This document shows positions 24,190 to 43,870 of a stretch of 52,979 nt of DNA, piece by piece. The stretch is taken from assembly GCA_012799695.1 (NCBI GenBank), contig JAAZKT010000028.1, positions 1 through 52,979 of the forward strand, in the 5' to 3' direction. The position numbers were made by a program, and so were the translations under genes. This DNA comes from Clostridiaceae bacterium. Its GTDB lineage: Bacteria; Bacillota; Clostridia; Saccharofermentanales; DTU023. Positions within the stretch are counted from its first letter, which is position 1, and the number at the start of each line of letters is the position of its first letter. Under the pieces are notes generated by a model. The model was not told the DNA's origin, ran no database searches, and saw nothing but the letters and a program-made list of their open reading frames with translations.

Positions 24190-25308
24190 TCAGTCGGCAC
24201 GATAGAGGCAACGACCCTCGACATAAGTCGCTTCGACATGAAGCGTGTCATCCCAGAGTACGAAATCAGCTTTGGCGCCCGGAACAAGGCGGCCGAGATC
24301 GGGGCGGCCGATCACGTCAGCGGGATTGCGAGTACCCATGCGCAACGCGTCATGCAGGGGAATGTCCGCGTCTTCGACAAGAAGACGAAGGCCCTGATCC
24401 ATCGTGAGCGTACTTCCTGCCAACCGTTCACCTTTCCGCGCGATACCGTTTTGCACGGAGACCGTTCCGTTGCCAAGGCGGTAAATGCCGTCCCGCATTC
24501 CGGCTGCTTCCATGGAATCCGTGCAGTAGAAACAACCTTCCACGCCCTTGGCAAGATAGATCAGTTTCACGATAAGAGGATGTATATGAACCATATCGGC
24601 GACGAATTCCGCTTTGAGATCGGGATGGGTCAGAGCGACGCCGAGAACGCCGGGCTGTCGGTGATGGAGCGCGGGCATGGCGTTAAACGTATGTGTTGTC
24701 GTGCTCACGCCGAGCCTGACAGCCTCTGTCGTTTCGACGGCAGTGGCCGCCGAGTGTCCGATCGACACCGTGATTCCCTGATCTGCAAGGAAACGCACCA
24801 ACTCCATACCGCCTTTTTTTTCAGGTGCGAGCGTAACGCGAACGATCAGGTCTTCGTAACCTTCAACAAGCGCGCGGTAATGGGAAATGGAAGGCTCCTT
24901 TAGGAAGCGCTCGTCGTGGACACCGCGCAGTTCATAGTCAAGATAAGGTCCTTCCAAATATGCGCCCAAGACGCGCGCGCCCTGTGCTGATTCCATCGCT
25001 AGGCGCACATTTTCTAAAAAAACGCGCGTTTGTTCATCCGAATCGGTGACGGAGGTCGGGCAAAAAGACGTAACGCCGAATTGCGGTTGTGTAGTTGCGA
25101 TGCGCGTCGTCCCGCCCGGGCGCATATTGTCCTCGCCCATTTGGCCGTGCATATGAAGATCGATCAGTCCGGGCGAGAGCAGACGTCCGCCCATATCGAT
25201 GCCGTTCGTCATAGTGCCGAGCGCCGTGATCGTACTGTTATCAAAAGAGATCGCCGTTTCATCAAGAAAACGCGTACCGTCAAAGAGTTTGAGATGCGAT
25301 AAGACCGT
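24190..25308 (-). CDS. nagA: N-acetylglucosamine-6-phosphate deacetylase
   Basis: LLSPGLIDLHMHGQMGEDNM metal motif, GHSAATAVETTEAVRLGVSTTTHTFNAM. Start MTVLSHLK after GGAAGG; the track ORF starts at 25365. Confidence 0.88.
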   Translation of the reverse strand, partial: TVLSHLKLFDGTRFLDETAISFDNSTITALGTMTNGIDMGGRLLSPGLIDLHMHGQMGEDNMRPGGTTRIATTQPQFGVTSFCPTSVTDSDEQTRVFLENVRLAMESAQGARVLGAYLEGPYLDYELRGVHDERFLKEPSISHYRALVEGYEDLIVRVTLAPEKKGGMELVRFLADQGITVSIGHSAATAVETTEAVRLGVSTTTHTFNAMPALHHRQPGVLGVALTHPDLKAEFVADMVHIHPLIVKLIYLAKGVEGCFYCTDSMEAAGMRDGIYRLGNGTVSVQNGIARKGERLAGSTLTMDQGLRLLVEDADIPLHDALRMGTRNPADVIGRPDLGRLVPGAKADFVLWDDTLHVEATYVEGRCLYRAD

Positions 25309-25452
25309 CATAGCGATATGCTTTCCTTCCGAGCGGTAGTTTATTTGAGTGCTCGCATTCACCAAGTAATTATAAAGTGCAATCTCTTATCATGTTACCA
25401 AAAGAAACATGGATATCGACCTCTATCTCACTGCAGTGTTTCAAAGAACTGA

Positions 25453-25714: not shown

Positions 25715-26479
25715 ATGAATAAAATAACTGCGCAAGAAATTGCCGACATGATCGATGTCTCTTTACTCAACCCGACGTTTACATTGGATATGATCACAAA
25801 AGGTTGCGAAACGGCGATGACTTATCGCTGTATATCCGTTTGTCTTCGCCCGGCGGATGTCAAACTTGCGGCGAATATCCTGAAAGGAAGCGACGTCAAG
25901 GTGACGACGGTAGTCGGGTTTCCTCACGGAAGCAATGAAACTGAGACGAAAGTCTTTGAGACACTTAAAGCAGTCGAAGAGGGGTGTGTGGAAGTCGACG
26001 TCGTTTTGAATATCGGGCGACTTCTTTCCGGCGATCTCGATTACGTGCGTAAGGATTTACGGGCCGTCGTGGACGCCGCACACGCTTCACGTGCTTTGGT
26101 CAAGGTCATTTTCGAGAACGCCTATTTGACGGACGAGCAAAAACGGTTGGCATGCCGTATTTGTGCTGACGTCGGCGCCGATTTTACGAAGACTTCGACC
26201 GGGTATGCGCCCGGCGGCGCGACCGTCCATGACTTGAAACTGATGCGCGCCAATACGCCGTCTTCCATGCGTCTCAAAGCGGCCGGCGGCGTACGAACCC
26301 TCGACGATGCACTGATCGTACGTGCAGTCGGAGCATCGCGATTCGGTTGCACACGAACCGAGACGATTATGAACGACGCATACCGAAGAGAGGCGGAAGA
26401 CACTTTGGTTCTTCCCGTCATCACCGATGATACGGAGCTTGCCTCCGTAATCGCCGCGCGAGAAGCGAAATTGACATAG
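25715..26479 (+). CDS. deoC: Deoxyribose-phosphate aldolase
   Basis: VGFPHGSNETETKVFE, LVKVIFENAYLTDEQK (Schiff-base Lys region), GADFTKTSTGYAPGGAT, MRLKAAGGVRT. Confidence 0.9.
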   Translation: MNKITAQEIADMIDVSLLNPTFTLDMITKGCETAMTYRCISVCLRPADVKLAANILKGSDVKVTTVVGFPHGSNETETKVFETLKAVEEGCVEVDVVLNIGRLLSGDLDYVRKDLRAVVDAAHASRALVKVIFENAYLTDEQKRLACRICADVGADFTKTSTGYAPGGATVHDLKLMRANTPSSMRLKAAGGVRTLDDALIVRAVGASRFGCTRTETIMNDAYRREAEDTLVLPVITDDTELASVIAAREAKLT

Positions 26480-26512: not shown

Positions 26513-27616
26513 ATGAACGTTATTGAGCAACGGCTAATTGAGGCGACTCGATATGAACCGCCTCAAAGAAAAGACTGGCGGATAGGTTGTATCGGCGCCG
26601 GTTTCATCATGGCGGACTGTCATCTCGTCGCATATCGCAACGCGGGGCTTAATCCGGTGGCAATCGCGTCACGTACTCCGTCACATGCCAGGGCAGTCGC
26701 CCAACGTCATGAGATTCCGAATGTGTATGACACATGGCAGATGCTGTTGGATGACGAGTCGATCGAGATACTCGATATCGCCTACCCGCCTGATCAACAG
26801 CTTGACATCGTCCGCGAAGCGGTCAAACGCGACCACATCAAGGGCATCCTTTGCCAGAAACCGGTCGCGATGACGTTGGAAGATGCAAAAGAGATTGCGA
26901 ATCTTGCCGATGAAAGCGGCAAGAAAATTGCCGTCAACTCCAATATGCGCTGTGATCAGTCGATGCGCGCGCTGAAGTATTTGCTCGATAAAGGCATTCT
27001 CGGCGAGCCTGTGCTCGCCACCATTGAAATGCGTGCGATTCCTCACTGGCAACCCTTTTTGGAGGAGTATGACCGACTGGAAATCTTCAGCATGGGCATC
27101 CACCATGTTGATACATTTCGTTTCCTATTCGGCGATCCCGAAGAGATCACTTGTGTTTGCCGCCCCGATCCGAGAACTCGTTTTCCGCATGTAGACGGCA
27201 TAACGCAATTCACGTTCAAGTATCCTAACGATCTGTTGGCGACGTCACTTGACGATGTGTGGGCGTGGCCGGAAGAACCGTGTGAAAAGGATATTTACAT
27301 AAAATGGCGTGTCGAGGGGATGGACGGTATGGCCAAAGGCACGATCGGTTGGCCTGATTACCCCGAGCGTACGCCGTCAACATTACAATTCACGTCTAAA
27401 CAATATCCGCACCGATGGATCGCACCGGTATGGGATACGGTCTGGTTCCCCGATGCTTTTGAGGGCACGATGACGAGCCTTCTCCGCGCCATCGAACAGG
27501 ATGAGGAACCCAAGATCTCCGCTCGCGACAATGTTCGGACCATCGCGTGCGTGGAAGGCTGTTACCGATCCATTGACGAGAAGCGAACAGTACGCTTTGA
27601 CGAGTTTAATTATTAA
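26513..27616 (+). CDS. Gfo/Idh/MocA-family oxidoreductase
   Basis: N-terminal Rossmann IGCIGAGFIM, CQKPVAMTLEDAKEIANLA (EKP-type motif, here QKP), FSMGIHHVDTFRFLFG. Confidence 0.9.
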   Translation: MNVIEQRLIEATRYEPPQRKDWRIGCIGAGFIMADCHLVAYRNAGLNPVAIASRTPSHARAVAQRHEIPNVYDTWQMLLDDESIEILDIAYPPDQQLDIVREAVKRDHIKGILCQKPVAMTLEDAKEIANLADESGKKIAVNSNMRCDQSMRALKYLLDKGILGEPVLATIEMRAIPHWQPFLEEYDRLEIFSMGIHHVDTFRFLFGDPEEITCVCRPDPRTRFPHVDGITQFTFKYPNDLLATSLDDVWAWPEEPCEKDIYIKWRVEGMDGMAKGTIGWPDYPERTPSTLQFTSKQYPHRWIAPVWDTVWFPDAFEGTMTSLLRAIEQDEEPKISARDNVRTIACVEGCYRSIDEKRTVRFDEFNY

Positions 27617-27635: not shown

Positions 27636-28538
27636 ATGATTAGCATTGGCATTTTTACCGGGTATTATCCCTACACGATGGCGGAGGTGATCCGCCGCAT
27701 CAAAGCGTCCGGCTTCAATTGTGTCCAGCTGGACGTCACGTTCAAGGATTTCGACGCGGCAAAGGAGCCGCTCACAAAAAAGAAGGCGAATGAAATTCGG
27801 GACGCTTTCCGAGAGGCCGACCTTCCCATCGTCGCGGTCTCCGCTTACACAAATTTCATTCATCCCGATCCGGACGTCCGCAAGAAGAATATCGATTACC
27901 TCAAGATGATGATGCGTTACGCGCGCGACCTAGGCTGTCCTTATGTCGCCAGCGAAACCGGCACGTACAATCGAGAAAGCGATTGGGTATGGCATGACAA
28001 AAATGCAAGTCCCGCCGTATTTGAAGAAACCATTGAGATTATTCGAGATCTGGTCGCGTACGCAAAAGAGTGGGGCGCGACATTCATCGTCGAAAATTAC
28101 GTCAATAACGTGATCGGTTCGGTCGAACAGGTCGAGCGGATGTTCAAAGAAGTGGGATGCGATCATCTCGGACTCATTTGCGACCCGACGAACTATTTTG
28201 ACGAAAACACGATCCAAGATGTCGATGGAACGTTAAATCATATCTTTGACCGCTTAAGCGATCACATGGTCATCGCCCACGCCAAAGATATCAATCTGAC
28301 TGAGGATTTAGGTGAAAAACATGCCGATATCGATGCGGACGCTTCACACACATTCCGCGGATCCGGCGCCGTTGAGCTGCCAGCCGCAGGACTGGGCATT
28401 CTTAACTACGATCTATACGTGAAGCGTCTCGCAGAAAAACACCCCAACATCCCGCTCATCATCGAGCACTTGGATGAGGGGGATATCGATCGAGCCAAAC
28501 GTTTCATCGTCGATACGTTGAAACGCGTAGGCGTGTAA
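27636..28538 (+). CDS. TIM-barrel sugar phosphate isomerase/epimerase-like (AP endonuclease family 2) protein
   Basis: VIRRIKASGFNCVQLDVTF, YVASETGTYNRE, FIVENYVNNVIGSVEQVERMF, MVIAHAKDINL, LIIEHLDEGD metal-ligand-type residues. Confidence 0.85.
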   Translation: MISIGIFTGYYPYTMAEVIRRIKASGFNCVQLDVTFKDFDAAKEPLTKKKANEIRDAFREADLPIVAVSAYTNFIHPDPDVRKKNIDYLKMMMRYARDLGCPYVASETGTYNRESDWVWHDKNASPAVFEETIEIIRDLVAYAKEWGATFIVENYVNNVIGSVEQVERMFKEVGCDHLGLICDPTNYFDENTIQDVDGTLNHIFDRLSDHMVIAHAKDINLTEDLGEKHADIDADASHTFRGSGAVELPAAGLGILNYDLYVKRLAEKHPNIPLIIEHLDEGDIDRAKRFIVDTLKRVGV

Positions 28539-28633: not shown

Positions 28634-29578
28634 ATGCAGTATCGGATCGGAATTGATCTAGGCGGCACTGCCATCAAGGCCGGTATAGTGGATGAAACGT
28701 ATCAAGTCATTTGTAGCCACCAACAACCGACAGTTGAAGGCTTCGAACTTGTCGTTGCCGACATGGCGGAAACGGCTCGCATAGCGGCAGAGAAAGCGGG
28801 ACTACGCTTGGATGACTTCCCATCGGTCGGCGTCGGTTCGCCCAGCTGTATCAATCCCTACACGGGACTTCTCGTCTTTTCAAATAATACAAATTGGCGG
28901 AACATGCCGTTAAAGCAAGAACTTGAGAAATACATTCCCGTACCGGTCTTTATCGAAAACGACGCCAACTGCGCCGTCGTCGGAGAGATGCTCGCCGGTG
29001 CGGCGAAAGGTTATCGCCATGTTCTGATGCTGACGTTGGGCACAGGCGTAGGCGGCGGCTTGATCATTAACGGACGTCTTTTCAGCGGAGGTGACGGTAT
29101 GGGCGCGGAACTCGGTCATACACCGCTAGTCGCCTGCGGGGAACCGTGTACGTGCGGTATCAGCGGCTGCCTTGAAGCCTACGCGTCCGTGACGGCGCTG
29201 ATCCGTCAGACGGAAAAAGCCATGTCGGATAATCCCGAATCGCGGATGCACGCGCACGCGGTTGCACATGGCGGTGTCTCAGGTCGCACGGCTTTCGATT
29301 GCGCGCGTGAAGGCGACGCCGTCGCCAAGCGCGTCGTCGATCAATACTGTACTTATCTCGCCGCAGGAATCGGTGGCTTCATCAACGTGTTCCGCCCGGA
29401 AATCGTGCTGTTAGGCGGCGGTTTATCAGGTGCCGGCGACACGCTTTTGGAACCTGTGCGCAAGAAAGTCGAACAATTCGTCTTTGCCCATGACATCATC
29501 GGGGCGCCGCCCATCGAGAGAGCCGCACTGGGCAATGCGGCGGGCACGATCGGCGCGGCTTATCTGGGCGACATATAG
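28634..29578 (+). CDS. ROK-family sugar kinase
   Basis: GIDLGGTAIKAGIVDE, LTLGTGVGGGLIINGRLFSG, ROK zinc motif CTCGISGCLEAYAS. Confidence 0.9.
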   Translation: MQYRIGIDLGGTAIKAGIVDETYQVICSHQQPTVEGFELVVADMAETARIAAEKAGLRLDDFPSVGVGSPSCINPYTGLLVFSNNTNWRNMPLKQELEKYIPVPVFIENDANCAVVGEMLAGAAKGYRHVLMLTLGTGVGGGLIINGRLFSGGDGMGAELGHTPLVACGEPCTCGISGCLEAYASVTALIRQTEKAMSDNPESRMHAHAVAHGGVSGRTAFDCAREGDAVAKRVVDQYCTYLAAGIGGFINVFRPEIVLLGGGLSGAGDTLLEPVRKKVEQFVFAHDIIGAPPIERAALGNAAGTIGAAYLGDI

Positions 29579-29597: not shown

Positions 29598-30368
29598 ATG
29601 ATTGCATCCGCGAGACGACTGTACATTATCAAAAGGCTTAACGAGTTGGGCATCATCGATTACAAGAGCATCGCCCGCGAACTTGACGTATCGGAAGCGA
29701 CCGTTCGCCGTGATTTCATCAAACTTGAAAACCAGGGTTCTCTTCGTCGCGTACAAGGCGGCGCCATTCGCTCGGAGGAAGACCTCGAGAATAACTATCA
29801 GGTAGAACTGTCGATGCAGTCAAAACACACGGTGAATACGGAAGCCAAACAAATGGTTGCCCGCGCCGCTGCGGAGGTTGTACAGCCCGGTGAATGTGTT
29901 TTCTTGGATATGGGTACGAGCATCGCACCGTTGGCGCCGATACTGCTCGCCATGCCGATTCGTATCGTGACATGCAATACGATGGTCCTTCGTCAAATGA
30001 AACCGAATGCGCGAGCGGAGGTTTTCGTGATCGGCGGACAATATATGCCCGCCGATCACATGATCGTCGGCTCCATCGCGGAGTGCACGCTGAGAAAATT
30101 CGGGCTGCATCATGCTTTCATCGGCTGTATGGGACTTGATATCCACAATAACACCGTTTATGCGACCGATATGGACGTTAACGCCATCAAGCAGGTCGCG
30201 ATTCAAAACGCCACCGATGCGTATCTTCTTGCCGATCGCTCTAAACTGTCTAAAGTAGGCCTTTTCAGAATTGCAGGCTTAGACGCATTTACGACTGTTT
30301 ACCTTGACGGACCGTCTCCAGAGGAAGATTTTCCGTCAAACGTCGTGTTCGTTGAAGAAGAGACATGA
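29598..30368 (+). CDS. DeoR-family transcriptional regulator
   Basis: N-terminal HTH SIARELDVSEATVRRDFIKLENQGSLRRVQGGA; C-terminal DeoRC sugar-sensor-like region. Confidence 0.92.
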   Translation: MIASARRLYIIKRLNELGIIDYKSIARELDVSEATVRRDFIKLENQGSLRRVQGGAIRSEEDLENNYQVELSMQSKHTVNTEAKQMVARAAAEVVQPGECVFLDMGTSIAPLAPILLAMPIRIVTCNTMVLRQMKPNARAEVFVIGGQYMPADHMIVGSIAECTLRKFGLHHAFIGCMGLDIHNNTVYATDMDVNAIKQVAIQNATDAYLLADRSKLSKVGLFRIAGLDAFTTVYLDGPSPEEDFPSNVVFVEEET

Positions 30369-30540: not shown

Positions 30541-31290
30541 ATGAAAACGAACGATCCCCGAAAAAGAGTGTTAATCGAATCGCTGAAAAACGGTCTCATT
30601 GTTTCCTGCCAAGTACAGGACGACGATCCGATCAGTACGCCGGATATGCATGTCAAGATGGCGGAGGCTGCGGCATGGGGTGGCGCGGTGGGCATCCGTG
30701 CGAACTCGCCGAGACAGATTCGCGACATCAAGGCTGCCGTCGATCTTCCCGTGATCGGTCTTTACAAACAGTGGCATGAGGGATCCAACGTCTTTATTAC
30801 GCCTACGCTTGACGCCGTGCACGCAGTCTACGAGGCGGGTGCGGAAATCATCGCACTTGACTGCACCGATCAACTTACGGTGGAGGGACGGCCAGCGTGG
30901 GAACTTTTGCCGAAGGCAATCGAAGCGTTTCCGGATGCCATTTTTTTCGCGGATATTTCAAACTACGAAGAAGCGGCACGCGCAATTGAACTTGGTGCCG
31001 ACATGGTGGCGCCCACGCTTTACGGCTACACACAAGATACGTGGGATATCGAGCACTTTAACGCACGCGAGTTCGCTCGCATGTGTCGAGATTTCGGCGA
31101 TGACACGTACATGATTATGGAAGGACACATCTACACGCCTGAAGACGCGATCAAGTGCCTCTATCTCGGCGCGCACGCCGTGGTCGTGGGAAGCGCCATT
31201 ACGAGACCGCATCTTACGACGAAACGATTTACCGATTTGATGAACGGTTTCCGAACGAACTGGCGTGATGCGGAAAGGAGTACACACTGA
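30541..31290 (+). CDS. nanE: Putative N-acetylmannosamine-6-phosphate 2-epimerase
   Basis: GLIVSCQVQDDDPISTPDMHVKMAEAAAWGGAVGIRANSP, LPVIGLYKQ, ITPTLDAVHAVYEAGAEIIALDCT, VVVGSAITRP. Confidence 0.88.
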   Translation: MKTNDPRKRVLIESLKNGLIVSCQVQDDDPISTPDMHVKMAEAAAWGGAVGIRANSPRQIRDIKAAVDLPVIGLYKQWHEGSNVFITPTLDAVHAVYEAGAEIIALDCTDQLTVEGRPAWELLPKAIEAFPDAIFFADISNYEEAARAIELGADMVAPTLYGYTQDTWDIEHFNAREFARMCRDFGDDTYMIMEGHIYTPEDAIKCLYLGAHAVVVGSAITRPHLTTKRFTDLMNGFRTNWRDAERSTH

Positions 31291-33566
31291 TGCCGAAGTT
31301 CAGTGTTGAAACACCGCAAAATGTCGCTGTTTCCATAAAAATCCCTCCGGAAATGTCTCCGATGGACCAACTGGAGCTTATGGAGCGCTATACGGCCACA
31401 CACCGCGCCTACGAGGGAAAATCGCGAGAAGAACGAGAGATCGCCTGTCTTCGCATCTTGTACCCTGCGCTTTTTCGCTCAATTGAACCCGACGATCTCT
31501 TTGCGGGCAGATTGGATTTTCTGCCGATCGGTTTCGGTTGCGTGACCTCAGTCGGCGGCGTGGGTCACTATTGCGTGTTTAACAAGCTGACCGCTTTCAA
31601 GGATCTTCTCCCCTCTGACGAACACGAACGCGTCGATGCGCTTTACGATTACTGGCTTGAACACGATCTTAAAACGAAATATTGCAGACAGGCATTGAAG
31701 GATGATGTGGTCGGTATGTTTATCGACGTGGAATACCCTCTTATCGTGACGGCGCGTCTCTCAGGCATGATGCTCAATTACCACATGCTTATGGATCTCG
31801 GTATCAGCGGCATCCGGGAGCGTATTCACGAACAACAGGAAAAACTGGGTGACAACGATTTTTATCGGGCATCCTTGGCATCTCTGGAACTTTTCTCTTC
31901 GTGCTGCGATCACCTTGCCGATAAGGTTCGATCCGACATGGAGGGCGCGACGCCTAAGCGGCGGGAAGAACTCCTGCGTATGGAGTCGGCACTCCTTCGT
32001 ATTCGAAATGATCGACCGGAAACCTTCGTGGAAGCACTACAGCTCTTTTGGCTTTATGCGCTCCTCGCCGGCGTCATAAATTACGGTCGCATGGACGATG
32101 TCCTCGGCCCGTTTCTCGCGCGCGATTTGCGCACGGGACATCTGACGGAAAGCGAAGCTTTTTCTCTCCTTCAATCGCTATGGACGATGATCGAAAACCG
32201 TCGCACGACGGTGAACGGTCGCATTATCGTCGGCGGCCGAGGTCGCCTAGATCCTGAATCTGCCGATATCTTCACTAGAATCGCGATGGATGTCGCTCAT
32301 TCATGTCGGTATGTCGAGCCGCAATTCACGTTGCGTTTCGATCGGGAAACGCCTGACGACATCATCGACGCCGCTCTTGACGCGATCGGAAGCGGAGCGA
32401 CGTATCCGACACTATACAACGACGATGTCCATATCCCCGCCGTCATGCGCGCGATGCGCGTCGACGAAAAAACGGCGGAACAGTACGTACCTTTCGGATG
32501 CGGTGAATTTGTCATTCAGGGACAGAGCGTCGGCACGCCGAACATCTGCATCAATCTATTAAAAATACTTCAAATAGCGCTGAATGACGGCATCGATCCG
32601 ATGGACGGCATCGACAAGAGTGACGGTGTATCGCTTCTTCCCGCGGAAGAGATTGATTCTTTCGATGTGCTGTTTTCTCAATACAAGAGACTACTCGACC
32701 ATTACTTTGATCTCTCGATTGAAAGTCAATTGCTCTCCTACGACGTTATGAATCAGGAGGTCTCGTTTCTATTCACGAGTATCTTGATGGACGATTGCGT
32801 TGAGCGAGGCAAAGCCGTGTTGGACGGGGGTATCAGGTATCTGGGCGGAACAGTTGAAACGTACGGCAACATCAACGTGTCAGACTCCCTCGCGGCGATA
32901 AAAAAGGTTGTGTTCGAAGATCAACGGGTCACACTTTCGGCGTTGCGAGACGCTGTCAACCGCGATTTTGACGGCGACATGCTACTCCGTCGACATCTCT
33001 GGGAAGCGCCGAAATACGGGAACGACAACGACGAAGCCGACACCATGGCGAATGAAGTATTTGAATTTGTCGCAAACGGCATTCGCGATCGCGGCATCAA
33101 CGCGGGCATGACGTATTTTTTGATCGTCATCAGCAATAACCAGTTGAATACTGAGTGGGGACGGCGCACGGCGGCGTCCTACGATGGACGCAGAAAGGGG
33201 CAGTTTATGAACCCCGCGAATAATCCGCAAGGAGGCGCCAACACGAGCGGTCCCACTGCCATGCTTAATTCTCTGACGCGTTTTGACGCGGGACTTCACG
33301 GCGGCAGTCTCCAGAATATCAAGTTCACACCTGATTTTTTCAATGGTCACCGCGATTTGGTTAAGAAAATGTTCCGCGTCTATTTCGACCGCGGCGGATG
33401 CCAGTTAATGGTCACTATCGTGAATCGAGGGGAACTTGAGAAAGCGGTGAAGAATCCCGATACTTACCGCGATCTGCTTGTCCGCGTATCGGGGTTTTCG
33501 GCTGTGTTCGTCAACCTCGAAACTGATATCCAGGAAGAGCTGATGAGTCGAGTGCTCTATGGATAA
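31290..33566 (+). CDS. Glycyl radical enzyme (PFL-like superfamily, dehydratase/eliminase-type C-x-E active site), substrate unknown
   Basis: Active-site loop VPFGCGEF (Cys404-Gly-Glu406; TGC at 32499-32501) and glycyl radical motif RVSGFSAVFVNLETDIQEELMSR (Gly735; GGG at 33492-33494); followed by an overlapping activase gene. Confidence 0.92.
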   Translation: MPKFSVETPQNVAVSIKIPPEMSPMDQLELMERYTATHRAYEGKSREEREIACLRILYPALFRSIEPDDLFAGRLDFLPIGFGCVTSVGGVGHYCVFNKLTAFKDLLPSDEHERVDALYDYWLEHDLKTKYCRQALKDDVVGMFIDVEYPLIVTARLSGMMLNYHMLMDLGISGIRERIHEQQEKLGDNDFYRASLASLELFSSCCDHLADKVRSDMEGATPKRREELLRMESALLRIRNDRPETFVEALQLFWLYALLAGVINYGRMDDVLGPFLARDLRTGHLTESEAFSLLQSLWTMIENRRTTVNGRIIVGGRGRLDPESADIFTRIAMDVAHSCRYVEPQFTLRFDRETPDDIIDAALDAIGSGATYPTLYNDDVHIPAVMRAMRVDEKTAEQYVPFGCGEFVIQGQSVGTPNICINLLKILQIALNDGIDPMDGIDKSDGVSLLPAEEIDSFDVLFSQYKRLLDHYFDLSIESQLLSYDVMNQEVSFLFTSILMDDCVERGKAVLDGGIRYLGGTVETYGNINVSDSLAAIKKVVFEDQRVTLSALRDAVNRDFDGDMLLRRHLWEAPKYGNDNDEADTMANEVFEFVANGIRDRGINAGMTYFLIVISNNQLNTEWGRRTAASYDGRRKGQFMNPANNPQGGANTSGPTAMLNSLTRFDAGLHGGSLQNIKFTPDFFNGHRDLVKKMFRVYFDRGGCQLMVTIVNRGELEKAVKNPDTYRDLLVRVSGFSAVFVNLETDIQEELMSRVLYG

Positions 33567-34464
33567 TCCTAAGTTTTTTGTCACCAGCATTGAACGCGGC
33601 GCCTATCATGACGGCCCGGGACTGCGCACAGTCGTCTTTTTCCAAGGGTGCCCTTTGCACTGCGCTTGGTGTTGCAATCCCGAAACGCAACCTTTTCGCC
33701 CTGTCCTCTTGCACGAGGGCAAGCGATGTGTCGCTTGCGGTAACTGTGTGCCGCATTGCCCCCAACAGGCGCTTTCCTTACGTGAAGGACGACTCCATGT
33801 GGATCGCGCGCAATGTATTTCGTGCGGGCGCTGTGTACCGGTCTGTCCCGGTGGAGCGTATTCCCTTTCCTCAGAGATTATGTCGTCTGAAGAGATTCTC
33901 GCCGTCGTGATGAAAGATGCTGATTATTATCGCGCGACAGGCGGCGGTCTGACACTTTCAGGGGGAGAACCCCTTTGTCAGCGCGGGGTGGAGGTGCTGC
34001 TTTTCCAAGCGAAACAGGCGAATCTTACAACATGCGTGGAGACGACGGCCGCACTTTCCTACAAAGTGTTGGAAAGCGTGCTGCCGTATGTTGACTATTT
34101 TTACATCGATTTGAAACACTCGGATCGCGATATTCTTTTGCGCGAGACGGGCGCCGACCTTGATCTTGTCACTTCGAATATAGGCAAGTTAATGGATAAA
34201 GGCGCCAACGTGACGCTTCGCACCGCGGTCATCCCCTGGTATAACGATGACCTTTCTACATTGCGGAGCATCTTTCACCTTGCCCTTGCGTTGGGCGTGA
34301 CAACGTATGTATTGCTGCCATTCCACCAATTAGGACGCGCCAAGTATGCGAAGCTGGGACGCCCGTATACGCTGGAGCACCTGAAAACCCTGACGCCGGA
34401 AGATGTGAGCGAGGCAGCGTCGCTCGGTCGACAGATGGGACTGGACGTTCGGATCGGAGGCTGA
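33559..34464 (+). CDS. Glycyl radical enzyme activating enzyme (radical SAM, two additional 4Fe-4S motifs)
   Basis: GCPLHCAWCCNPE (CX3CX2C), CVACGNCVPHCP and CISCGRCVPVCP ferredoxin motifs, TLSGGEPLCQ; overlaps the GRE stop. Confidence 0.94.
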   Translation: MDNPKFFVTSIERGAYHDGPGLRTVVFFQGCPLHCAWCCNPETQPFRPVLLHEGKRCVACGNCVPHCPQQALSLREGRLHVDRAQCISCGRCVPVCPGGAYSLSSEIMSSEEILAVVMKDADYYRATGGGLTLSGGEPLCQRGVEVLLFQAKQANLTTCVETTAALSYKVLESVLPYVDYFYIDLKHSDRDILLRETGADLDLVTSNIGKLMDKGANVTLRTAVIPWYNDDLSTLRSIFHLALALGVTTYVLLPFHQLGRAKYAKLGRPYTLEHLKTLTPEDVSEAASLGRQMGLDVRIGG

Positions 34465-34465
34465 T

Positions 34466-35446
34466 GTGCTGCCTTTGCGACCCTCTCTTAAAGATGCGAT
34501 TTGGGGCGGCCTCCGGCTCTTTGAGCGATATCGCAAAGGATCGGGAGAACGGCTCGCCGAGAGTTGGGAGCTTTCCACTCACGCGGACGGCCATTCACGT
34601 CTCCCGGATGGTCGTACGCTTCAGGATCGTCTGGCAACGGAGCCGTGGTTGGCAGGCGGTTCGGCACATCGGGACGGCACGATTCCGATCTTGGCAAAAC
34701 TCATCGACGCGCGCTTGCCTTTATCCGTACAAGTCCATCCCGACGATGACGGTGCGCGCCGCCATGGCGGATTATCGGGAAAGACGGAGTGCTGGTATAT
34801 TCTCGACGCGGAGCCCGGTGCTTGGATTTACCACGGTCTTCGCAAATCATTGACGCGCACGAAATTGGAAAAGCATGCGCGAGAGGGCACGATTGAATCG
34901 GTACTCCGAAAGGTGCCCGTCCACATCGGAGACATATTTTATATTCCTGCCGGCACGCTGCATGCTCTCGGCGGCGGCATTCTCTGTTTTGAACTACAAC
35001 AGAGCTCAAATGTAACATACCGCGTTTTCGACTATGGTCGTCGCGACCATACGGGAAAGCCGCGGAGGCTTCATATACAAGAGGCACTTGACGTCGCAAC
35101 TCTTATGCCTACGCCGCGAGAGATTCCGGGCCTTGATGAACCGATCGCGACAAGCGGATTGACACGCCGGACGATTGTGGATTGCGCGCAGTTTACCATG
35201 GAGGAATTGCTGCTTGATGGAGAAGGCACGATCGATGTTCCGAGTCGACGATTTGCCTGTCTTTTTCTCATTGAAGGTCGGTGCCGTGCCGTATCGCATG
35301 GCAGTCACGGTGTAGAAACGGAAGCTGACGAGCTTACGTTGGTGTCCGGGCAAACTGTCTTTCTTTCTTCACGGGAAACAGTCTCGCTTCACGGTAAGGG
35401 TCATGCACTTCTTGCATTCCCGCCGAACGGTGTCGTTGCACGCTGA
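34466..35446 (+). CDS. manA: Mannose-6-phosphate isomerase, class I type (GTG start, TGATGTG-coupled)
   Basis: KDAIWGGLRL, LPLSVQVHPDD, GKTECWYIL, IPAGTLHALGGGILCFELQQSSNVTYRVFDYGR. Confidence 0.88.
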   Translation: MLPLRPSLKDAIWGGLRLFERYRKGSGERLAESWELSTHADGHSRLPDGRTLQDRLATEPWLAGGSAHRDGTIPILAKLIDARLPLSVQVHPDDDGARRHGGLSGKTECWYILDAEPGAWIYHGLRKSLTRTKLEKHAREGTIESVLRKVPVHIGDIFYIPAGTLHALGGGILCFELQQSSNVTYRVFDYGRRDHTGKPRRLHIQEALDVATLMPTPREIPGLDEPIATSGLTRRTIVDCAQFTMEELLLDGEGTIDVPSRRFACLFLIEGRCRAVSHGSHGVETEADELTLVSGQTVFLSSRETVSLHGKGHALLAFPPNGVVAR

Positions 35447-35514
35447 TGACATTAGGAATATCGCAAAAAGAGCGTCAAATACACGATCGCAAGCCTGCCG
35501 GACATGCTTGGAAC

Positions 35515-35528
35515 GTTTTTGCAAAAAC
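35515..35528. repeat. Perfect 14-bp palindrome upstream of the ABC exporter operon
   Basis: GTTTTTGCAAAAAC; shares CGTTTTTGCAAA with the nanE upstream region (30461-30472). Confidence 0.55.
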
Positions 35529-35579
35529 AATGGAAATGTCACATACTTAATTGCATCAGTGGAAAGGAGCGCGATCTGC

Positions 35580-36560
35580 GTGGTCGATGTTGAGCACCTA
35601 ACCAAATACTACGGTGATAAAAAAGTCTTGGATGACATCAGTTTTTCGATTGCGGATCGTCAAGTTGTCGGTCTGCTCGGCCTTAACGGCGCCGGAAAAT
35701 CGACGATCATGAACATTTTGACCGGTTACCTTGCCGCGACGTCCGGAACGGTGCGTATCGCCGGCTACGACATTCTCTCCGATGCCACCAACGCAAAAAA
35801 ACACATTGGCTATTTACCGGAACTATTTTCCTTCTATCCTGAAATGCGCGTCAATGACTTCCTCTCATTCATCTGTGATTTGAAAGGCGTGATGCGTGAT
35901 CATAAAGAGAGAGAGACCCACCTTTCCGACATCTGCGAGAGAGTCGGTCTTGCCGATGAAAGACGTCGCATGATTCGCAATCTTTCCAAAGGATATCGGC
36001 AGCGTGTCGGTTTTGCGCAGGCTCTCATCGGCAATCCAGCACTTCTCATACTCGATGAACCGACGGCAAGTCTTGACCCGTCGCAAGTCGTCGATATGCG
36101 GGAGCTGATTCGCGAAACGGGCAAAAAAAGTGCCGTCATTGTATCGTCGCATATTCTGCACGAGATCCAGCTCATGTGCGACCGCGTGATTCTGATTCAC
36201 GAAGGTAAAATCGCGGCGGACGATACGCCTGAAGGACTATCTAGAAAAATGATGTCCACCCATCGCATGGTCGCGCGCATTAAAGGAGCAAAGGATGATG
36301 TCCTGAACGCGCTTCAATCCGTGCCGTCCGTTCAGCATGTCGAAGCTGTCGTAGAGAATGAGCCGGGCGCGTTCGATTATCGGATCGAAGGAGTCGCCGG
36401 AACCGATATCCGTGAAGACGTTTTTCATGCTCTTGCCTATGCGGATCTTCCGCTCCTTCAGACGACTCGACGCGAGCAGGCCTTGGAAGATGTTTTCCTC
36501 CATGTCACGGGAACGGATCAGGATGCGCAGCCCATCCAGGAAAGTGAGGAACTCCGATGA
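35580..36560 (+). CDS. ABC transporter ATP-binding protein (GldA/NatA-like)
   Basis: GLNGAGKSTIMNILTGYL Walker A, LSKGYRQRVGFAQALIGNPALLILDEPTASLDP. GTG start at 35580 after AAAGGAGC; the track ORF starts at 35403. Confidence 0.9.
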   Translation: MVDVEHLTKYYGDKKVLDDISFSIADRQVVGLLGLNGAGKSTIMNILTGYLAATSGTVRIAGYDILSDATNAKKHIGYLPELFSFYPEMRVNDFLSFICDLKGVMRDHKERETHLSDICERVGLADERRRMIRNLSKGYRQRVGFAQALIGNPALLILDEPTASLDPSQVVDMRELIRETGKKSAVIVSSHILHEIQLMCDRVILIHEGKIAADDTPEGLSRKMMSTHRMVARIKGAKDDVLNALQSVPSVQHVEAVVENEPGAFDYRIEGVAGTDIREDVFHALAYADLPLLQTTRREQALEDVFLHVTGTDQDAQPIQESEELR

Positions 36561-37261
36561 TCGCTGTTTTCAAACGTGAGTTTCACGCATATTTTCACTC
36601 ACCGCTCGGCTACGTTTTTATCGCCGTCATGTATTTTTTCACCGCCTACTACTTCTTCATGGGCAATCTCGTCCAAAATACGACGGACATGTCGTTCCTC
36701 TTTAACCAGCTGTTTACCGTCGTCTTGTTTCTAGTGCCCATCTTGACGATGCGGCTTATGAGCGAAGATCAGCGTGCCGGCACGAATCAAATACTCTTTA
36801 CGTCGCCCGTATCACGCTTAGGCATCGTTTGCGGGAAATATTTCGCCGCTTTCGCCGTGTACTTAATGTCCATCTCAGGAGCTCTCATTATGGCGCTGAT
36901 CGTCGAATTCTTCTCGAAGACGGATTGGCCCGTCGTCATCGGCCACCTAATCGGACTGATTTTGCTGGGAGCGTCGCTCATCGCCATCTGCCTCTTCCTT
37001 TCCGGTTTGACTGAAAGCCAAGTCATCGCCGCCGTCAGCGGATTCGCGGCAAGCTTGTCGCTCGTCCTGATCGATGCGCTGGTGAGTGTCGTTTCAGGAA
37101 AGACTTTTAAGACTCTTTTTATGTACATGTCGTTCAATAACCGTTATCACGGCTTTACTATCGGCATCATCGATTTTTCCAACGTGGTATTTTTCTTAAG
37201 CATCGCCGCACTTTTTGTGCTCTTGACCGGCGCCGGTCTTGAAAAGCGCCGATGGAGCTGA
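36557..37261 (+). CDS. ABC-2 type permease (GldF-like)
   Basis: Multi-pass protein with SPLGYVFIAVMYFFTAYYFFMGNL and LMSEDQRAGTNQILFTSPVS; ATGA overlap with the ATPase gene. Confidence 0.87.
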   Translation: MIAVFKREFHAYFHSPLGYVFIAVMYFFTAYYFFMGNLVQNTTDMSFLFNQLFTVVLFLVPILTMRLMSEDQRAGTNQILFTSPVSRLGIVCGKYFAAFAVYLMSISGALIMALIVEFFSKTDWPVVIGHLIGLILLGASLIAICLFLSGLTESQVIAAVSGFAASLSLVLIDALVSVVSGKTFKTLFMYMSFNNRYHGFTIGIIDFSNVVFFLSIAALFVLLTGAGLEKRRWS

Positions 37262-37274
37262 AAGGAGGGGCGGC

Positions 37275-38726
37275 ATGAAGAAAACGACTAACACGACCGG
37301 CCATCGTATGAACGCGCTTTTCGCGTTATCGATCACGCTTCTCGTCGTGGTGTTTATCCTCCTCAACGCGGTGGCGCTCGTATTATCCAACCGATTCCCG
37401 CTTTCCTTGGATCTTACTGCCAACGCGGCATACAACATCGGCGAAGAGACTAAAACGATGCTCGATCATCTCGTAAGACCGGTCACCATCGATATCCTCG
37501 CACCGGAACAGATGTTTTCGGGCGATGCGTATCTCGTGCAGACGAAGAAAATTCTGGAACAATACGAACGCCATTCTTCGCGCGTAACGGTTCACTACAT
37601 CGACTATGCCGCCGATCCGAGTTACGCGGCAACCCGACCCGATCTCAAGCTTTCCGAAGGCGATCTGATCGTTTCGTCGGGCGACCGCGTCAAACAAATA
37701 CCTCTTTCGTCGCTGTTCAACTACACTCCTACCGCCGCAGGCTCGATCATAATTGAATCGTCGCGTGCTGAAGAGGCGATCACGAGCGCGATCATGAACG
37801 TTTTGAGCGGGGATGATGTGCGATGCGGTGTACTTGTAGGAAACGGAGGACCGGAAGCGGAAACGTTCACGACGCTACTTGTCAACAACCACTACGTCCT
37901 GCAAAACGCCGTGCCGGCAACCGATGATCTTTCCGATTTCGACGCGCTATTCCTTTTCGCGCCGCAAAACGATCTTTCCGCCGATGATATCCGCGCGTTG
38001 GACGCCTTTCTTTACAATGACGGAAACTACGGCAAGACGTTGTTCTATACGGCTTCCGTGACCCAGGCGTCCCTTCCCATGATCGAATCGTTTCTTGCCG
38101 AATGGGGTGTCACTGTCGGCGAAGGCTCCGTGTTTGAGACGACACCGGAGCGCACCTATCAGCGTCAGCCGTTTTACGCCATCGCCGACTTCGCGGAAAC
38201 TCATTACCGCGACATGCTCGTCGACCCCAACGCGCCGATGTTGATGCCGCTGGCGCGACCTTTGAAAACGATATTCACTGTTCGCGATCATCAGTTTACG
38301 GAGACGCTACTGACGTTTGGAGAGACCGCGGCAGTGAGACCGCCGAACGCGTCGGATGATTTCATCGCGGATGACGCTACGGAACGGGGACCGTTCCCGG
38401 CACTCGTATTAGCCTCACGCCGTTTCTATGAAGACGGATTATTGGCGCGTCAATCTTCGATCGTCGTTTCGAGTTCACATCATATGCTGGAACCGATCGC
38501 GCTTCACAACACCTCTCTCTCAAACAGCGCCTATCTGCTCAACATGATGAACGACTTGACGGGACGCGAAGAGGGACCCGCCATCACACCGAAGTCTCTT
38601 GCCGGTAAAACACTCGGCGCGACATCATCGCAAGTGACGAGACTGGGCGTCGTGCTGGGCGGCATTATCCCGCTCGCCATCCTCCTGACAGGTGTAGGCG
38701 TTTGGCTTTACCGGAGGTATCAGTGA
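37275..38726 (+). CDS. GldG-like ABC-associated membrane protein
   Basis: N-terminal TM, LSLDLTANAAYNIGEETKTMLDHLVRPVTIDILAP, C-terminal TM; starts after GGAGGGG, between the permease and DUF4340-like genes. Confidence 0.8.
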   Translation: MKKTTNTTGHRMNALFALSITLLVVVFILLNAVALVLSNRFPLSLDLTANAAYNIGEETKTMLDHLVRPVTIDILAPEQMFSGDAYLVQTKKILEQYERHSSRVTVHYIDYAADPSYAATRPDLKLSEGDLIVSSGDRVKQIPLSSLFNYTPTAAGSIIIESSRAEEAITSAIMNVLSGDDVRCGVLVGNGGPEAETFTTLLVNNHYVLQNAVPATDDLSDFDALFLFAPQNDLSADDIRALDAFLYNDGNYGKTLFYTASVTQASLPMIESFLAEWGVTVGEGSVFETTPERTYQRQPFYAIADFAETHYRDMLVDPNAPMLMPLARPLKTIFTVRDHQFTETLLTFGETAAVRPPNASDDFIADDATERGPFPALVLASRRFYEDGLLARQSSIVVSSSHHMLEPIALHNTSLSNSAYLLNMMNDLTGREEGPAITPKSLAGKTLGATSSQVTRLGVVLGGIIPLAILLTGVGVWLYRRYQ

Positions 38727-40150
38727 TGCGAAAGCTCATGCGGTTTACAACGGGGCTGGCCATACTTGCCGTCTTACTTGCGGTAACGCTGTCGCTGCTC
38801 CTTCTGAGCACACAAGAGACCGAAGATCTGACACTGACTCTTTCGGACAGGAAAGTGACCGACGTGCGTGCAGTACATCTCACTAATGCGACCGGCACGC
38901 TGCAAGTCGGTATGGCGGAAGGAGGCTATGTCATCGAAGATCTCCCTTCAGAGCACGTCGATATTAAACAATTCATAGACTTTCTAGGCGCTTGCGCCGA
39001 CATTCGCCATCTTCCCCTCGTCGTAAAAAAGCCTGATAACTTGGCGGTGTACGGACTTGATGCCCCTAGGGCGGTGCTCAATGTGGAATACACGGACGGT
39101 GCGACGATTTCGCTTTCCCTCGGTATGCAAGAACCGATTTCCGGCGACAGCTATTGCACAGCGGAAGGTCACGACGGCGTATACCTGATCGAAAGCGAAC
39201 AGGCGGATTTCTTTCTTTTAGCGAAGAATGATTTGCTCTCCCTTTGGGTGACACCTGAGCTTGCCTTGTCGAGCGCGCTTTCGGCACTTCAGGACGTGAC
39301 GTTTGTGTTTAAGGATCGACCTTCGCCGATCGTCATCCTATCCGTACAGGCGGGCAACGATGCCGTCAAATCAGCGGCAATTTCGTTCGGCGCGCCGACG
39401 CACCTCGTGTTGTCAGCAGGCCTATATGAGCTTGATGCGACGTATGGTCTGCAAGTTTTGGCACCTCTTTGTGGAATGAGGGGAACAACGATTGTTGAAC
39501 AGCATCTCACGTCGGAGCTTGAAAAAGAATACGGCTTTGACGATCCGTGGCTCGATGTCTCCTTCGGCTATCAGAACAGTGCTGAAGAGGGCATGCGTTA
39601 TGTATTGAGATTTCAGCCTGCCGGCGACGACAGCTCGTTGTTTTATGTAAACGTGAAAGGCAGTCCCCTCGTGTATATGATAAATCGACAGCCGTTCATG
39701 GACATTGAGTTCGAGAAGTTGTTGCTGCGTTGGTTTTTGTCGCCGTTGCTCATGGATGTGAACGCCATTGACATCGAGATGCCGGAAAGCCATCGGACGT
39801 TCGTGCTTGATCAGGAGAATCCGCGCGAGCCGTCCGCAACCATGGACGGCGAACCGCTCGCCATTGATCGGTTCCGCCTGCTTTTCCGTTTGCTTGGAAG
39901 TGCCGCGTCGGACGGTCGTCTGCTTCCCGCAAAGGAACAACCGGACGAAGCCCCGCTAATGACGATTACATACCGTTATCCCGGGGAAAAACACGACGAC
40001 GTCATGGCGCTCTACCCTGAGGAGGACCGACGTGTGCGCGTTTATATCAACGGCATTTCCGAGTTCTCGATGAAAGAGTCCTTTGTGACTCGCGTGTCAG
40101 AAGCACTTGAAGCGTTGGATAAAGACGAAGACTTTGATATCACTTGGTAA
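38726..40150 (+). CDS. DUF4340-like membrane-anchored protein
   Basis: N-terminal TM, then FIDFLGACADIRHLPLVVKKPDNLAVYGLDAPRAVLNVEYTDGATISLSLG repeats; TGATG overlap with the GldG-like gene. Confidence 0.75.
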   Translation: MRKLMRFTTGLAILAVLLAVTLSLLLLSTQETEDLTLTLSDRKVTDVRAVHLTNATGTLQVGMAEGGYVIEDLPSEHVDIKQFIDFLGACADIRHLPLVVKKPDNLAVYGLDAPRAVLNVEYTDGATISLSLGMQEPISGDSYCTAEGHDGVYLIESEQADFFLLAKNDLLSLWVTPELALSSALSALQDVTFVFKDRPSPIVILSVQAGNDAVKSAAISFGAPTHLVLSAGLYELDATYGLQVLAPLCGMRGTTIVEQHLTSELEKEYGFDDPWLDVSFGYQNSAEEGMRYVLRFQPAGDDSSLFYVNVKGSPLVYMINRQPFMDIEFEKLLLRWFLSPLLMDVNAIDIEMPESHRTFVLDQENPREPSATMDGEPLAIDRFRLLFRLLGSAASDGRLLPAKEQPDEAPLMTITYRYPGEKHDDVMALYPEEDRRVRVYINGISEFSMKESFVTRVSEALEALDKDEDFDITW

Positions 40151-40224: not shown

Positions 40225-41352
40225 ATGGATACTAACAGTCGTCTAAAGGTTGCGATCATCGGAAGCGGCATGATCGCCAATACGGCGCATATCCCGGCTT
40301 ATCTCAATTTGGGTAAACGCGTGCATCTATGCGCCGTTTCAGATCTAAGAGCGGATTCCGCGCGCGAAACGGCGGAACGTTTTTCCATTCCGCGCTGGTA
40401 TACCGAGGCAGAGGATATGCTTGTCAAGGAAAAACCCGATCTTGTTTCCGTATGCACGTCAAACGCCAGCCACAAGGCGATGGCGATGTTGGCGATGCGA
40501 CACGGCGCGCATGTCGCCTGCGAAAAGCCCGTCGCGTTAAACTACGACGACACGCGCGAGTTATACGCCTATGCACGTAAACACGGCTTGGTGTTGTTTG
40601 CTTGTCAGGTACTGCGTTACAACACCGAATACCAGCTCGCGCACGAATGGGCTCAGGAAGGGCGACTCGGCGACATATATTTCAGCGAGTCGGTGCTGAT
40701 CCGCCGTCGCGGAATTCCAAAGTGGGGCGCTTTCCATAAGAAAGAAACGAACGGCGGCGGCGTATTCTGTGACCTCGGTGTGCATCTTGTTGACGCCGCC
40801 CTTTGGGTTATGGGCGGTCCTAAATTCACCTCCGTATCGGGCGTAACGTCATCGATCATCGCCCGAAGCGGCGAGAAGATTCTCACGAGCGTACCGGAAT
40901 CCGGCGCACCTGCCGGCGTACCGAATATGCCGCCTTATTCGGCGTCGGCATTCGATGTGGACGAATTCGCCGCGGGCATGATTCGCCTCGACAACGGCGC
41001 GTCCATCCATTTCAAGACGTCTTGGGTGATCAATCTCCCGAACGAATACGGCATGACCTTCGCGGGCAGTCTGGGCGGACTCGTGCTCCCCGAGATGACA
41101 TTGCTGACGACAATGGGACGCTATCAGGCTGATGTCCGGCCGCGTGTTTTTTCTGAAGAGCGACCTTATGCGAACGAAGTTTTTCCCGGGCATTTTTTCC
41201 TTATGGAAAACGCTGTCGATCACTTGCAAAAAGCGACACCTCTTATGGTTCAACCCGAGGAAACGCTGAATGTCACTGCAATCATTGACGGCTTTTATCG
41301 TTCCGCTGAGCTTGGACGTGAAGTATTTGCCGATGAGATTGTCGGCAAGTGA
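40225..41352 (+). CDS. Gfo/Idh/MocA-family oxidoreductase
   Basis: VAIIGSGMIANTAHIPAY Rossmann motif, CEKPVALNYDDTRELY, GGGVFCDLGVHLVDAALWVMG. Confidence 0.92.
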   Translation: MDTNSRLKVAIIGSGMIANTAHIPAYLNLGKRVHLCAVSDLRADSARETAERFSIPRWYTEAEDMLVKEKPDLVSVCTSNASHKAMAMLAMRHGAHVACEKPVALNYDDTRELYAYARKHGLVLFACQVLRYNTEYQLAHEWAQEGRLGDIYFSESVLIRRRGIPKWGAFHKKETNGGGVFCDLGVHLVDAALWVMGGPKFTSVSGVTSSIIARSGEKILTSVPESGAPAGVPNMPPYSASAFDVDEFAAGMIRLDNGASIHFKTSWVINLPNEYGMTFAGSLGGLVLPEMTLLTTMGRYQADVRPRVFSEERPYANEVFPGHFFLMENAVDHLQKATPLMVQPEETLNVTAIIDGFYRSAELGREVFADEIVGK

Positions 41353-41375
41353 CGCAAATAAATGGAGGTAAACAT

Positions 41376-42323
41376 ATGAAAGTCGGTTTATACTCGATCT
41401 CCTGTTCGGGGGTCTGGTTTAACGACAGGCCGCCCTTAACAGTCGAAGAGTTTATCGATACGGCTGCGAAATATGGTTATGACGGAATAGAGCTCGACCT
41501 GAAACGTCCGCACGGCTCACCCTTGGATCTCGATGAGCGGCGCTGTCTTGAAATCAAGACCTACGCAGAAAGCAAGGGCCTTGAGATCGCCGCTGTCGCG
41601 GCGAATAACAATTTCGCATCGGTGGTTCCTGAACACATTGAAAATGAACTTCTCATGGTCCGCGAGCAGATTCGTGTCGCGCGCCAACTTGGCGCGCCCG
41701 TGCTGCGCGTTTTTGCGGCGTGGCGCGGTGTCGTCATGAGAAATGGCATCGCGACGTACGAGGTTCCTGAAGCTCACCATTCCTATTACGGCGCGCTCGA
41801 TTACGAATTGCGTCAAAACATCGTTGAATGTCTCAAAGAATGTGCGGTTTGGGCAGAAGACGCAGGCGTCGTGCTTGCTCTCCAAAATCATCACCCCATT
41901 ATTGAGGATTATCGTGACATGCTCGACTTTGTACGATGGGTCGATTCGCCATGGGTGCAGTGCTGCCTTGACGCGCCCTGTCTCGGCTGGACGGAAGAAC
42001 GTCAAAGCGATACCTATGTGGCGCAGGCTGTCAAAGACGTCGGCAAACGACAGGTGCTGTCACACGCCAACGGCGAGTTCGTAGAAGAGGCGAACGGCGA
42101 TATTCGCATGATCTCGTTCGATCCGCATATTCAGCCCGTACTTACAAATTATCCCGCTTTTATCAAAGCGTTGAAAGAAGAAGGGTACGACGGTTATATC
42201 AATTACGAGTTTTGCCATATGCCGTTTCACGACGGTCGCGTACTCGGTTATAACGACTTCATTGAAGACCAAATTCGGATCGCGGAGAAGTATTTGCGTT
42301 CTTTGATTGAAGACTATTTGTAG
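41376..42323 (+). CDS. TIM-barrel sugar phosphate isomerase/epimerase-like protein
   Basis: FIDTAAKYGYDGIELDLKRP, VLALQNHHPIIEDYRDMLDFVRWVDSPWVQCCLDAPC, YINYEFCHMP. Start after TGGAGG; the track ORF starts at 41349. Confidence 0.87.
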   Translation: MKVGLYSISCSGVWFNDRPPLTVEEFIDTAAKYGYDGIELDLKRPHGSPLDLDERRCLEIKTYAESKGLEIAAVAANNNFASVVPEHIENELLMVREQIRVARQLGAPVLRVFAAWRGVVMRNGIATYEVPEAHHSYYGALDYELRQNIVECLKECAVWAEDAGVVLALQNHHPIIEDYRDMLDFVRWVDSPWVQCCLDAPCLGWTEERQSDTYVAQAVKDVGKRQVLSHANGEFVEEANGDIRMISFDPHIQPVLTNYPAFIKALKEEGYDGYINYEFCHMPFHDGRVLGYNDFIEDQIRIAEKYLRSLIEDYL

Positions 42324-43666: not shown

Positions 43667-43702
43667 GCCGCTTTACATTAAAGCGAATTAGCCTATGAAA
43701 TA

Positions 43703-43734: not shown

Positions 43735-43787
43735 ATGAGAAAGGAAGGGTTGGGTTCGATTCCACTCTTCCGACAAACGAATCGCCT

Positions 43788-43842: not shown

Positions 43843-43870
43843 AACAATGTAATCTACGGGATGTCAACAC

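Follow-up and report, generated by a model that had tools for sequence, protein, structure and literature searches.

The glycyl radical enzyme operon

The 52,979-nucleotide contig JAAZKT010000028.1 of a Clostridiaceae bacterium (GCA_012799695.1), referred to at its full length as the window, carries the gene for a glycyl radical enzyme (GRE) of 758 residues together with the gene for its activating enzyme (activase). A previous reading of the window, made from its letters alone (the sequence-only reading), had placed this pair between nanE and manA, with the activase gene overlapping the GRE stop codon, and had assigned to the GRE the residues Cys404-Gly-Glu406 and the glycyl motif RVSG735. 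Inspection of the open reading frame and of its Pfam matches confirmed the coordinates and motifs, and the position and overlap of the pair were as described. The proposed operon, nanE-GRE-activase-manA, does contain these genes, but it is larger, with deoC, a Gfo/Idh gene, a TIM-barrel gene, a ROK kinase gene and a DeoR-family gene preceding nanE on the + strand, and manA is not a recurrent member. The genes of the locus are:

24190..25365, - strand: nagA-like N-acetylglucosamine-6-phosphate deacetylase, divergent from the GRE operon
25715..26479, + strand: DeoC-type (deoxyribose-phosphate) aldolase, heading the + strand operon
26513..27616, + strand: Gfo/Idh/MocA oxidoreductase, specificity unassigned
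27636..28538, + strand: xylose-isomerase-like TIM-barrel protein (AP_endonuc_2); a 66% identical copy adjoins the GRE gene at one other locus (L074)
28634..29578, + strand: ROK sugar kinase, glucokinase-like (245.6 bits, cut-off 260.35), also beside nanE-GRE elsewhere
29598..30368, + strand: DeoR-family regulator, near the GRE gene at six further loci
30541..31290, + strand: NanE-like epimerase of a GRE-linked subfamily, here called NanE-G (NF002231, 226 vs. 189 bits)
31290..33566, + strand: GRE, 758 residues; codons of Cys404 at 32499-32501, Glu406 at 32505-32507 and Gly735 at 33492-33494
33559..34464, + strand: GRE activase, radical SAM with two ferredoxin-type clusters (TIGR02494, 272.5 bits, cut-off 174.35)
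34466..35446, + strand: short class-I mannose-6-phosphate isomerase-like protein, manA (100.2 bits, slightly under the cut-off of 116.2)

The nanE stop codon (TGA, 31288-31290) and the GRE start codon (ATG, 31290) overlap by 1 nt, the activase ATG (33559) and the GRE stop codon (33564-33566) by 8 nt, and manA starts (34466) 2 nt past the activase end (34464). The GRE is the sole match to PF02901 in the 1.7-Mb genome. Since a sister genome (G009) carries the same operon, with identical gene order and proteins 79-99% identical, the operon is no accident of assembly; among 38 genomes of the family, the GRE was found, besides the window genome, only in this sister genome (96% identity). The host is described here as a gut bacterium, and the GRE as an oxygen-sensitive enzyme. 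The partner genes expected of known GREs had been reported to be missing, and this stands for the window genes that were scanned: neither a CoA-acylating aldehyde dehydrogenase nor microcompartment genes were found among them, the remaining window genes not having been scanned.

A predicted eliminase with an altered active site

The GRE matched the Pfam models PFL-like (395.6 bits) and Gly_radical (76.5 bits), both far over their cut-offs, and has the barrel, the glycyl radical motif and the adjoining activase of its own that characterise the GRE superfamily (PF02901 and PF01228). A Pfam search showed that the activase retains its radical SAM and ferredoxin domains. The cysteine loop of the GRE reads VPFGC404-G-E406 and the glycyl loop RVSG735F. 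C404, E406 and G735 are kept across the whole alignment of the clade described below; within its orthogroup, the middle residue of the Cys-x-Glu (CxE) motif is Gly or Thr, the Cys and the Glu being invariant. The motif had been taken to indicate an eliminase and not a pyruvate formate-lyase, and our results agree: the GRE has a single Cys followed by x-Glu in place of the Cys-Cys of PflB, scored 82 bits against TIGR01255 (cut-off 994) and is 23.8% identical to PflB. On the basis of these motifs, we predict that the protein is an active GRE and belongs to the eliminases (CxE type).

An AlphaFold2 model, built from an alignment of 37 sequences, had a mean predicted local distance difference test score of 93. 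In a Foldseek comparison, it matched the solved GREs with template modelling (TM) scores of 0.81-0.87, and the solved eliminases, YbiW with bound 1,5-anhydroglucitol-6-phosphate among them, with scores of 0.83-0.87 at 20-24% identity. All the eliminases were about equally near, and the function can therefore not be read off the fold. For the same reason, an assignment from the nearest PDB entry was discarded; the best sequence match, glycerol dehydratase (236 bits), is just 24% identical in the Foldseek alignment.

Ten positions are invariant in the clade and peculiar to it when compared with 64 other GREs: Arg156, Gly159, Arg311, Arg319, Asp326, Gln345, Pro417, Asn616, Asn617 and Asn644. The position of Gly159 is occupied by His in 50 of the 64, including YbiW, PflD, glycerol dehydratase (GD) and the HypD-type enzymes, and that of Arg311 mostly by Asn (Asn or Thr in YbiW and PflD). 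Residues His164, Ser282 and Asp447 of GD, which contact its substrate, correspond to Gly159, Val262 and Pro417; as the GD reference also lies elsewhere in the tree, a glycerol/propanediol dehydratase was rejected. Trans-4-hydroxy-L-proline dehydratase, HypD, requires Asp278, Asp339 and His160, as determined by mutagenesis (PMC7077986). At these positions, with the HypD numbering anchored via a 20-residue tag, the window GRE has Gly261, Val308 and Gly159. Our reading of these replacements is that the radical machinery has been conserved while the substrate would differ from those of the known GREs. Phosphate, or another anion, would be a fitting partner for the additional invariant arginines.

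The GRE belongs to a separate, widespread clade

In a tree of 110 GREs, the window GRE fell into a clade of 46 sequences (SH-like approximate likelihood-ratio test, SH-aLRT, 100; stem 1.51), with the references GD, HypD, YbiW, PflD, PflB and CutC all outside. The tree came from a quick search and has some long end branches, so that it is uncertain where the clade sits among its neighbours. Isethionate lyase, HpsG, HplG, BSS and HPAD, which are absent from the tree, were compared by hidden Markov model score or PDB identity. The enzyme thus falls in none of the characterised clades tested, in line with its earlier description as an uncharacterised GRE. Within the clade, an orthogroup of 30 (support 100) consists of group A, with 24 rows including the window, and group B, with 6. 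A class-level genome search returned relatives at 31-44% identity. In the GTDB collection, relatives at 48-66% identity came from Bacteroidales, Oscillospiraceae, Lachnospiraceae, Erysipelotrichales, Coriobacteriia, Sporomusaceae, Citrobacter, Vibrio and Maledivibacter; isolates in the clade include Thomasclavelia saccharogumia DSM 17460 and Citrobacter. The orthogroup spans Bacillota, Bacteroidota, Actinomycetota and Pseudomonadota, across which the clade is spread by transfer. No DNA match to the Citrobacter GRE gene was found in E. coli genomes at a sensitivity set for distant matches.

Assignment to a known family was attempted with NCBIfam, and every specific GRE family scored far under its cut-off. 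HypD (NF043068) came out best with 276.9 bits (cut-off 1100), and the residues essential in HypD are replaced. The values were 222 bits (cut-off 1050) for CutC (TIGR04394), which forms a separate clade, 215.6 and 231.4 bits (cut-off 1000) for the sulfopropanediol dehydratases HpsG/HpfG (NF048011 and NF048009), and 325 bits (cut-off 678) for the general PFL2-3 subfamily. Membership of the YbiW/PflD group was also rejected, as these enzymes form a separate clade (SH-aLRT 100) and are 26-28% identical to the window GRE.

The outer members of the clade (L041-L045 and L080-L091; 31-44% identity) come from Spirochaetota, Verrucomicrobiota, Acidobacteriota, Lentisphaerota and Flavobacteriaceae. Some of their GRE genes adjoin sugar ABC transporter or glycosidase genes, and two (L044 and L045) lie beside genes for a lactonase-like metallo-hydrolase, an AraC protein and a MATE protein. 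Probably, the outer members carry out the same chemistry on other substrates. A distant homologue in another genome (L006, in G080) was reported by the search with one in-frame TAG stop.

A kinase or phosphotransferase system and a NanE-like epimerase accompany the GRE

At most group A loci, nanE is near the GRE gene, often in the order ROK-nanE-GRE-activase, and the recurrent partners of the GRE are the ROK kinase and nanE rather than manA. The group B loci of Citrobacter, Vibrio and Maledivibacter are without NanE-G and have instead a fructose-type phosphotransferase system (PTS; EIIABC) and a GntR/UTRA regulator; this PTS is closest to the mannosylglycerate type, under the cut-off of the latter. 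A sugar phosphate is delivered in either group, by the ROK kinase in one and by the PTS in the second, and this speaks for a phosphorylated sugar as the substrate of the GRE. A sugar, amino sugar or sugar phosphate had been proposed before; the sugar-phosphate context across phyla sustains that proposal, but its amino-sugar part derives solely from the NanE label. GH94-like genes beside some GRE copies matched cellobiose phosphorylase only weakly and gave no clue to the substrate. We found no paper in the open-access literature that links a GRE to nanE, and subscription papers, including the primary YbiW/PflD paper, may mention the clade.

NanE-G is about 40% identical to solved NanE proteins and 59-73% identical within its own subfamily across phyla. 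It keeps all six catalytic residues of SaNanE (Gln11, Arg40, Lys63, Asp124, Glu180 and Arg208). SaNanE contacts the N-acetyl group through Tyr149 and Phe72 (PMC8482478), both of which are also kept. The signatures of the subfamily are a DDP in place of the EPLH motif, MEGHxYTPEDA and a C-terminal RDAExxKH. Whole-genome counts gave NanE-G in 23 of the 28 genomes of the orthogroup, against none of the 11 from the outer clade. In the class sample, it was detected in the window genome (573 bits, the next best score being 184) and in none of 390 others, the same 390 being without the orthogroup GRE. In Fisher tests, P was about 1e-33 when the class sample served as the comparison and 3e-6 when the outer clade did; these values ignore shared ancestry, and the orthogroup genomes had been picked via the GRE. 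The phylum sample yielded no further NanE-G; one genome (G880) has a 48% identical NanE homologue on a 3.4-kb contig, where the context was uninformative. Because about 10 genomes hold an ordinary NanE in addition to NanE-G, it is unlikely that NanE-G is simply a sialic-acid enzyme, and the label N-acetylmannosamine-6-phosphate epimerase may be wrong for it. At two other loci (L073:6501-8900 and L076:6500-8900), a third type of NanE, 46-48% identical to NanE-G, lies beside a group B GRE gene, with SIS-domain and manA-like genes; both genomes carry NanE-G at another place.

Relation to the YbiW/PflD pathway

The substrates of the E. coli enzymes YbiW and PflD, as described in a review, are 1,5-anhydroglucitol-6-phosphate and 1,5-anhydromannitol-6-phosphate (PMC12441222). 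According to the PDB titles, YbiW has been solved with the first of these compounds and a PflD with the second, which establishes that GREs acting on C6-phosphorylated sugars exist. The aldolase genes fsaA and fsaB adjoin ybiW/pflD in E. coli, where pflD is found with fsaB and fructose-type PTS genes.

Both kinds of GRE occur together in some genomes. In Propionispora (L079:2946-12400), two GRE-activase pairs are about 6 kb apart, one with a YbiW-type GRE (47% identical to YbiW) and the other with an orthologue of the window GRE accompanied by NanE-G. Two Erysipelotrichaceae with a group B GRE have NanE-G in a separate operon (L152:8481-19901 and L153:331-10068) with HxlA/HxlB-like genes, a corrinoid methyltransferase system, deoC and a YbiW-like GRE (38-40%) with its activase; apart from deoC, nanE and the GRE, the gene names are our own reading of the sequences. 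Perhaps the substrate of this operon is a methylated sugar. NanE-G, deoC and the two kinds of GRE are thus repeatedly found in each other's company, in support of a radical route that acts on sugar phosphates and is completed by an aldolase.

Proposed function

We propose that the GRE carries out a radical elimination on a hexose-type sugar phosphorylated at C6, and that its pathway is akin to that of YbiW and PflD without being the same. We put the probability of this reading at about 0.58, and that of any single substrate much lower. The sequences show the motifs of the GRE and its activase, the separate clade and the conserved cassette, whereas the individual steps of catalysis, a phosphorylated substrate and the order of NanE-G and GRE are inferences. 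An imported hexose-type sugar would be phosphorylated at C6, by the ROK kinase here and by the fructose-type PTS in Citrobacter, Vibrio and Maledivibacter, and NanE-G would set the configuration at C2 in most lineages. The thiyl radical of Cys404 would then abstract a hydrogen from a carbon bearing a hydroxyl group, with Glu406 accepting the proton of that hydroxyl. The neighbouring carbon would lose a substituent (a hydroxyl or a ring ether, less likely NH3) as the ketyl radical collapses, and Cys404 would return the hydrogen, to give a deoxy-keto or deoxy-aldo sugar phosphate. The DeoC-type aldolase of the window and of some relatives could split this product into glyceraldehyde-3-phosphate and a small carbonyl compound, a role modelled on that of FsaA, which may act in this way on the YbiW product in E. 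coli. CxE enzymes more commonly cleave a C-O bond, but the GRE may instead break the C-N bond of a hexosamine phosphate. NanE chemistry requires a carbonyl at C1. If NanE-G directly precedes the GRE, the substrate would therefore be a reducing aldose phosphate and not an anhydrohexitol.

Several observations weigh against this proposal. No member of the clade has a known substrate or activity, and genomic context cannot reveal which bond is cleaved. DeoC and manA recur at few loci only. Vibrio thalassae is without any NanE and one metagenome-assembled genome (L054) is without NanE-G, so that NanE-G is not strictly required. Moreover, the invariant arginines are common to the outer members of the clade, whose substrates may not be phosphates.

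The GRE could instead be a third anhydrohexitol-6-phosphate dehydratase, opening a 1,5-anhydrohexitol-6-phosphate to a 1-deoxyketose-6-phosphate, with NanE-G at another step of the regulon. YbiW and PflD catalyse such a ring opening (PMC12441222), the PTS-GRE-activase layout of group B mirrors the E. coli pflD locus, and three genomes have a YbiW-type GRE at the same locus or in the operon of NanE-G. We nevertheless consider this unlikely, in view of the identity of about 26% to YbiW and PflD, the fully supported separation of the clades and the changes from their His to Gly159 and from their Asn/Thr to Arg311; an anhydrohexitol, in addition, offers no carbonyl for a NanE-type epimerisation at C2. 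More doubtful still is a radical C-N lyase acting after nanE and nagA, which would remove NH3 or acetamide from mannosamine- or glucosamine-6-phosphate and leave a 2-deoxy sugar derivative for DeoC. In its favour are nanE and the divergent nagA flanking the operon, nagA and deoC near the GRE gene also at L073 and L076, and the N-acetyl contacts and catalytic residues that NanE-G shares with NanE; CutC and HplG are GREs able to cleave C-N bonds. However, most cassettes are without nagA, the presence of ordinary NanE alongside NanE-G in about 10 genomes speaks against it, and the NagB-type deaminases encoded elsewhere in the window genome would make a radical route redundant. To our knowledge, the loss of acetamide is without precedent.

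The sugar genes might also be incidental, with the GRE acting on a substrate that is not a sugar or not phosphorylated, or serving as an acyltransferase like pyruvate formate-lyase. Although the genes outside the cassette vary and the genome has no second GRE of the PFL family, a cassette with a rare epimerase subfamily is conserved across phyla, and the CxE motif and the low identity to PflB set the enzyme apart from the acyltransferases; we regard this as the least probable of the explanations considered. Returning to the elimination on a C6-phosphorylated hexose-type sugar, we tentatively extend it to a pathway that would be present in at least four phyla. There, together with a kinase or a PTS and with a 2-epimerase of the NanE-like kind dedicated to this route, the GRE would degrade a C6-phosphorylated reducing hexose-type sugar to a deoxysugar phosphate for an aldolase. 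No such pathway appears in the literature searched, and we know of no characterised GRE that performs an elimination on such a substrate.

Other features of the window

For the TIM-barrel protein of the operon, no match was found in the PDB, and for the Gfo/Idh protein the matches were only broad; scans for promoters and terminators gave results at chance level. Directly 3' of manA (35403-40150) are genes for an ABC-2 type transporter and two large membrane-anchored proteins, which, as read from the open reading frames, resemble a gliding-type ABC export module; the module is kept in the sister genome. Farther on, a second sugar region (40225-51655) has a ribose-type ABC transporter and several Gfo/Idh oxidoreductases and TIM-barrel proteins. 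One of its proteins is distantly like levoglucosan/glycoside 3-dehydrogenase (178 bits, cut-off 650), and at five Bacteroidales loci 3-keto-disaccharide hydrolase and dehydrogenase genes akin to those of this region lie near the GRE gene.

Significance and comparison with known systems

The clade of predicted GRE eliminases is deep, and its orthogroup has NanE-G as a conserved partner. New GRE clades have repeatedly explained unassigned gut chemistry, as with choline, hydroxyproline, taurine and anhydroglucitol. The cassette (kinase or PTS, NanE-G, GRE and activase) is small and can be directly expressed and assayed. Its substrate, once found, would extend the map of the anaerobic diet by a sugar and GRE chemistry by a substrate class, and would also tell whether NanE-G is a mis-annotated epimerase.

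Among known systems, B12-independent glycerol/propanediol dehydratase shares the CxE motif and is the best match in sequence and fold (TM 0.85), but it differs in the low identity and in the aldehyde dehydrogenase and microcompartment genes, absent among the scanned genes of the window. HypD has the CxE motif and a similar fold (TM 0.87); in contrast, the window GRE locus is without proC. Bacterial NanE and NanE-G have the catalytic residues and the N-acetyl contacts in common and differ in their signature motifs, and some genomes have both. With YbiW and PflD, the window GRE shares the eliminase fold and the CxE motif, and they use a sugar-type substrate phosphorylated at C6, which a PTS supplies, with an aldolase acting downstream. 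The window clade differs from them in having Arg156, Arg311, Asn616, Asn617 and, in place of their His, Gly159, and its locus in having nanE and a ROK kinase where theirs have fsa and frw genes.

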